A stretch of 64,000 bases of DNA from Artemia franciscana (lineage: Eukaryota; Arthropoda; Branchiopoda; Anostraca; Artemiidae). Of the stretch, positions 10,591 through 26,777 are shown one piece after another (position 1 is the stretch's first letter; each line of letters begins with the position of its first letter). The notes under the pieces are model-generated. The model was not told where the DNA came from. It searched no databases and worked only from the letters and a program-made list of their open reading frames with translations. The DNA lies in NCBI RefSeq assembly GCF_032884065.1, contig NC_088868.1, forward strand, positions 2,537,043 to 2,601,042. Reading direction: 5' to 3'. A program made the translations under genes and the position numbers.

Positions 10591-10763
10591 ATGAACCGCG
10601 TAGCTGTTGACAAAGCCATGATGGCTCTTACCACAAAGAAAGCCACTTTTGGAATGAGCTGATTTTGGTTCCCTGAGGCGCGCTTTGGCGCAGCCCCAGG
10701 GGTTATTCGCACCCGTGCCGGATTCTCAGGAGGCTCCAAACTGAACCCAACATACAGAAGTTT
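10591..10763 (+). CDS. MsrA: MsrA coding exon 1 (contains in-frame TGA at 10660-10662)
   Basis: Codons 1-57 plus two bases. The frame runs from ATG through KKATFGMS, then TGA, then FWFPEARFG, the GFSGG loop and NPTYRS, to the donor at GTAAGT (10764). The split Leu codon (tt+a) is completed by exon 2. A pyrimidine-rich AG just upstream (ending at 10577) could be an acceptor, so a 5'UTR exon or a longer N-terminus is possible. The residues flanking the active site differ from the usual GCFWG: the Gly before is Ser and the Gly after is Phe. Confidence 0.93.

Positions 10764-26777: not shown

Follow-up and report, generated by a model that had tools for sequence, protein, structure and literature searches.

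Why does the gene for methionine-S-sulfoxide reductase A (MsrA) of Artemia franciscana, a brine shrimp noted for its tolerance of salt and its dormant cysts, carry an in-frame TGA at its catalytic codon? We addressed this question in a window of 64 kb, the whole stretch of DNA that was analyzed. The answer that we hold with high confidence is that the gene encodes an arthropod MsrA of the selenocysteine (Sec) type, in which tRNA-Sec would decode the UGA at codon 24 as Sec under the direction of SECIS hairpins located toward the 3' end of the transcript. An earlier note on this DNA had proposed that the TGA is read as Sec. This reading of codon 24 is now strongly supported at the sequence level by TGA in relatives, SECIS-like elements, tRNA-Sec and SepSecS.

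The gene lies on the plus strand and has four coding exons. Exon 1 (10591-10763) holds the TGA (10660-10662) at the catalytic Cys/Sec position, in the context GMS-U-FW. Exon 2 (17725-17839) encodes GDHTE with Glu63 and is followed by exon 3 (21191-21327), while exon 4 (26540-26777) encodes YHQKY, a helical domain and the C-terminal Cys220, and ends with a TAA stop. The earlier note had joined four in-phase exons into an MsrA of 220 codons, and splicing confirmed this: the product has 663 nt, or 220 codons plus TAA, and all three introns are GT-AG. Splicing and the alignment columns also bore out that the TGA at codon 24, at the catalytic position, is the sole internal stop in a gene that spans 16 kb. 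A pyrimidine-rich, acceptor-like AG (CCTTTTAG) stands immediately 5' of the exon 1 ATG, so an additional exon 5' of exon 1 is possible. A promoter scan of 10300-10700 used a bacterial consensus and is not informative for this gene.

The spliced protein matches PMSR (Pfam PF01625) with 142.2 bits, above the curated cut-off of 23.7. C-terminal to this domain it matches PF20939 (MsrA_helical, 42.8 bits), which Pfam titles 'Selenoprotein methionine sulfoxide reductase A, helical domain'. The active-site residues F25, W26, E63, Y143, H144, Q145, K146 and Y147 are invariant in an alignment of ten rows. When the protein was searched against its own genome (1.27 Gb in 6468 contigs as searched) at E <=1, six candidates were scored and the four matches were the four exons. 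The match at exon 1 contains one TGA, and that at exon 3 overruns the exon ends and contains one TAG and one TAA. The search detected no further gene of this MsrA subfamily. The earlier note had named a second intact Cys-MsrA gene, with the present one unexpressed, as an argument against its own reading.

Protein relatives were examined through 120 listed of 2781 found, with the C typed at codon 24 of the window's own protein left out of the counts. At the column of codon 24, W occurs in 51 and C in 50 of these 120, whose remaining rows have a gap (18) or I (one). The W rows come from jgi, lgn, ena or merc sources. Tryptophan as a nucleophile is chemically senseless, and gene callers that use code 4 translate TGA as W; W in this column was therefore read as TGA, and we infer that the 51 W rows carry TGA at the catalytic codon. 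The Daphnia magna entry is one of the 50 C rows, its C being accidental, since this stretch is read in another frame and its letters permit a stop, Gly or Arg, never Cys. Several neighboring residues of the window protein are typical of the W rows. S23 occurs in 47 of the 51 W rows and in none of the 50 C rows (residues shown), E29 in 50/51 against 6/50, M98 in 50/51 against 7/50, and C93 in 34/51 against 3/50; F27 is found in 50/51 W rows. At some marks the protein is unlike the W rows, for example with R31 where 43/51 have Q and A183 where 43/51 have G.

In a tree built with column 24 masked and rooted at its midpoint, the window protein belongs to a clade that has a support of 0.994 and comprises 73 tips, among them 50 W rows, 20 rows without a residue and two C rows. 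There it shares a subclade (support 0.88) with Daphnia, two W rows and four rows that lack the residue. The W rows do not form a pure clade, as the smallest clade that holds all 51 has 76 tips, including four C rows. Prokaryotic genomes were also scanned, and the best 80 of 535 confirmed relatives were kept, two of them without the motif. In the other 78 loci the catalytic codon is TGA in 59, TGT in 14 and TGC in five; a catalytic TGA is therefore a common state of the closest prokaryotic members (best 80 of 535). Their record titles include Nitrospirae, Chloroflexi, Deltaproteobacteria, Planctomycetota, Synergistaceae and Salsuginibacillus kocurii. At the redox-active position where codon 24 has its in-frame TGA, relatives thus show TGA or Cys.

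Part of the Sec machinery was found in the genome, namely tRNA-Sec, which the earlier note had suggested looking up, and SepSecS. tRNA-Sec is present at two loci with 83.3 and 80.6 bits, both called tRNA-SeC (tca) by ARAGORN, whereas the other six matches to the family are tRNA-Ser, three of them above the cut-off; in control genomes the family matches in 14/14, above the cut-off in five. SepSecS is present with 412.8 bits over positions 39-388 of 389, a family that also matches in 3/14 control genomes, including B. subtilis. No tRNA was found by ARAGORN in the 64-kb window.

Two explanations deny Sec at codon 24 altogether. A sequencing or assembly error in a Cys codon is scarcely credible, as it would need a chance strike on the very codon that is TGA in 59/78 prokaryotic relatives (best 80 of 535), in a protein with the Sec-type neighbors S23 and F27 and a genome with tRNA-Sec. 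The TGA might instead be a true stop in a pseudogene or decayed allele. This too is very unlikely: the lone defect coincides with the catalytic codon, at which relatives have TGA as well, the protein retains its active-site residues and most of the Sec-type marks, and the genome search revealed no further member of the subfamily.

The earlier note had suggested a search for SECIS elements downstream, and this yielded three SECIS-like elements but none that reaches the Rfam gathering score. The elements r1 (28718-28805, ATGA at 28736), r2 (28902-28989, ATGA at 28921) and r3 (29145-29236, ATGA at 29165) are arranged in tandem on the plus strand, 1.9-2.5 kb 3' of the MsrA stop. They share the plan helix, ATGA, helix, apical AAA, GA, and each has the AUGA/GA core, apical AA(A) and two helices of a SECIS. 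Two AATAAA poly(A) signals (29273 and 29289; 29273-29294) stand soon 3' of r3 on the same strand, and neither AATAAA nor ATTAAA occurs between r1 and r3. Further poly(A)-like signals were found upstream, AATAAA at 27180 and 28515 and ATTAAA at 27851; transcripts ended there would exclude r1-r3.

The three elements are diverged copies of one another. Their mutual identity over 92 nt is 0.67-0.73, as compared with 0.40-0.53 in the flanks; for random pairs the mean is 0.45-0.47 and the 95% point lies at 0.52. The similarity ends near the SECIS edges, and the flanks are unrelated. On a structure that we specified for r1-r3, 93.6% of cells pair, against 34-47% when the partners are slid. Three pairs have changed on both sides, a number equalled in 18/500 shuffles, and the number of pair types was equalled in 143/500. 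This covariation, from three sequences only, is modest evidence. The free-energy minimum of r2 and of r3 is a SECIS-like fold, whereas r1, the weakest of the three, favors another fold by 6.7 kcal/mol. Against shuffles, the folds of r1, r2 and r3 are not extreme (z -0.11, -1.62 and -1.90).

Searches by pattern and by family gave mixed results. A loose first scan of 26778-36000 placed r2 3rd, r1 6th and r3 8th of 25 listed. A tighter SECIS descriptor, composed after r1-r3 were known, found exactly these three on the plus strand of the 64 kb and none on the minus strand; its baseline in 30 simulated 64-kb sequences is a mean of 0.63, or 0.83 without the demand for helix 1. Rfam SECIS_1 covers r2 over its full length with 22.4 bits and an E of 0.079, a value that applies to a 571-base stretch chosen afterwards. 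When 4227 Rfam families were run on this stretch, four matches were obtained, of which SECIS_1 was the best, with the AUGA core aligned; r1 and r3 had no SECIS_1 match there. SECIS_1 had no match in the whole-window run, at the gathering score or at E 10, and none in 26700-33000 at E 5; at the gathering score the window had no match to any Rfam family. The elements are named SECIS-like because the best score, 22.4 bits, is below the Rfam cut-off of 35.

Other origins and owners of the elements were considered. A dispersed repeat was rejected as their origin, since a model scan of the 64 kb gave three matches of at least 95 bits and a next one of 14.8, with no other convincing copy. We also rejected the idea that another small selenoprotein gene lies between the MsrA stop and r1. 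With TGA taken as a residue, 24 frames were listed there; six plus-strand frames had no Pfam match (E 5) and 18 were judged by eye. The next gene, a palmitoyl-protein thioesterase, was rejected as owner because its frame, which ends near 31.3 kb, is a minus-strand one, and the elements lie on the plus strand. MsrA is thus the only plus-strand gene seen that r1-r3 could serve.

The thioesterase frame (PF02089) occupies 31289-31705 on the minus strand. A plus-strand frame with PF01984 (1083-1487) is PDCD5-like. Reverse-transcriptase frames (PF00078) were found on the minus strand at 54622-57052, 5465-5935 and 61623-62312. One such frame has 91% and 97% identity to Artemia franciscana proteins over 32% and 19% of its length, and 98% identity over 86% to a further protein. 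The regions 23545-25966 and 38655-43318 contain Tyr-Ile run frames, from TA-rich microsatellites, and tandem units of 16 letters in the protein. A scan against viral contigs gave no match.

A protein of the Sec type could still be served by a SECIS elsewhere, with r1-r3 being a degenerate tandem repeat. The poor fold of r1, the r2 score below the Rfam cut-off, the ranks of only 3rd, 6th and 8th of 25 in the untuned scan, the post hoc descriptor and the weak three-sequence covariation (18/500 and 143/500 shuffles) all speak for it. We nevertheless consider it improbable. Identity within the elements stands well apart from that of the flanks (0.67-0.73 vs 0.40-0.53) and ends near the SECIS edges, pairing is far above that with slid partners (93.6% vs 34-47%) and three pairs changed on both sides, SECIS_1 with its AUGA core aligned is the best of the four matches among 4227 families, and the 64 kb holds no other convincing copy (next 14.8 bits). 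A last explanation is compatible with the preferred one. In it the protein is of the Sec type, one of r1-r3 works and the rest are leftovers of duplication. The chances of this appear evenly balanced: r1 is weaker, and the same has been argued in published accounts of Ciona SelW1 (PMC2874816) and amphioxus DI (PMC3473315), whereas all three elements keep the core, most helix pairs and the apical AAA while their flanks are at the level of random pairs. It is a more doubtful possibility that a single mRNA with one UGA carries three tandem SECIS of which two or more function and are maintained by selection, giving a graded or redundant SECIS dose on a selenoenzyme of oxidation repair.

Returning to a Sec-type MsrA served by its own 3' elements, the following mechanism may be proposed. 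In the mRNA of methionine-S-sulfoxide reductase A, the UGA at codon 24 would be read as selenocysteine via tRNA-Sec, and the insertion would be directed by SECIS hairpins farther 3' in the same transcript, with r2 and r3 as the best candidates. Sec24 would then attack the sulfoxide of an oxidised methionine, and the oxidised selenium may be resolved within the protein, by Cys93 or by Cys220, unless an external reductant does so. We infer transcription through r1-r3, Sec insertion, the enzyme activity and the resolving step. Recoding could in addition be helped by a stem-loop at 10670-10702 on the plus strand, a possible Sec redefinition element that begins 7 nt 3' of the TGA. Its fold in a 48-nt stretch has -22.9 kcal/mol and a z of -2.76, with 1/200 shuffles as good. 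This role is speculative, as the z-score weakens in longer stretches (61 nt, z -1.46, 16/200; 124 nt, z -0.22, 74/200).

Among solved structures, the sequence of the window protein best matches the chains of an MsrA that we take to be that of Clostridium oremlandii (CoMsrA; PDB 4lwj and others). HMMER aligned codon 24 to residue 16 of these chains; the bacterial Sec recoding signal differs from the eukaryotic SECIS. The peptide FALGCFWGPDAQ, quoted for CoMsrA in PMC4479559, agrees with the chain. In native CoMsrA the catalytic residue 16 is described as Sec (PMC4333827, PMC4479559). The two proteins are alike in the aligned catalytic residue and in the C-terminal PF20939, and native CoMsrA is a selenoprotein. 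They differ in that CoMsrA, as these sources describe it, has no Cys beside the catalytic Sec, whereas the window protein has Cys93 and Cys220. Cys93 sits two or three residues before the positions aligned to Arg88 and Gln89 of CoMsrA, which are described as shaping a hole at the active sites of the dimer (PMC4479559). It is a candidate resolving residue because of this proximity and because its column is Cys in 34/51 W rows and 3/50 C rows. Cys220 may be the other candidate; its column is Cys in 23/51 W rows vs 47/50 C rows.

The earlier note had mentioned Sec in MsrA of some invertebrates, and this is published (PMC4244043, PMC3473315). Sec-MsrA is described in Daphnia pulex, Ixodes scapularis and Strigamia, and also in Branchiostoma (PMC4244043), and in five of six other invertebrates, namely Amphimedon, Trichoplax, Nematostella, Capitella and Branchiostoma (PMC3473315). 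Each Strigamia selenoprotein gene is reported with a SECIS downstream (PMC4244043). A selenoprotein search in Daphnia pulex does not mention MsrA in the text available to us (PMC2500217). The window gene resembles these genes in having Sec at the catalytic position of MsrA, and differs, as far as published descriptions allow comparison, in coming from the Artemia lineage and in having three SECIS-like elements. No paper on Artemia selenoproteins was among the titles found in the literature searched, and one Artemia paper (PMC10572060) mentions a selenoprotein in a reference only.

Three tandem SECIS-like hairpins behind one UGA look unusual. Genes with a single Sec and two SECIS have been described, namely Ciona SelW1 (PMC2874816) and amphioxus DI_b and Nematostella Gpx_a (PMC3473315). 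In these, too, SECIS outnumber UGA codons, but they have two SECIS and belong to other protein families, whereas the window gene has three elements. No report of three SECIS in one mRNA for one UGA was found in the literature searched. The phrase 'three SECIS' in the passages found of PMC3328465 and PMC5323020 refers to elements of different genes or tests, and the review PMC8704476 deals only with additional SECIS-binding proteins.

Insect Cys-MsrA of the same subfamily has 48-56% identity to the window protein (named insects among the 120 listed) and shares the PMSR domain and mostly PF20939 too. It differs in that the catalytic column is Cys; the residue preceding this Cys is mostly G or A, and FW is followed mostly by A, G, S or E. 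Insects are reported to have converted this MsrA family to Cys (PMC4244043). Since Sec-MsrA of non-insect arthropods is already published, the window gene adds to a known group, as a probable brine-shrimp Sec-MsrA that joins a family which insects turned to Cys. Annotation seems to lose such genes. Four crustacean MsrA entries that were examined (D. magna, D. pulex, Petrolisthes and Halocaridina) are defective at the codon, being read in another frame, starting late or skipping the stretch of the Sec codon, and no Artemia-named protein is among the 120 relatives listed of 2781. Should all three SECIS-like elements prove functional, this gene would be a natural test of SECIS copy number for one UGA, a question so far addressed, to our knowledge, mainly in selenoprotein P (see PMC5133445).
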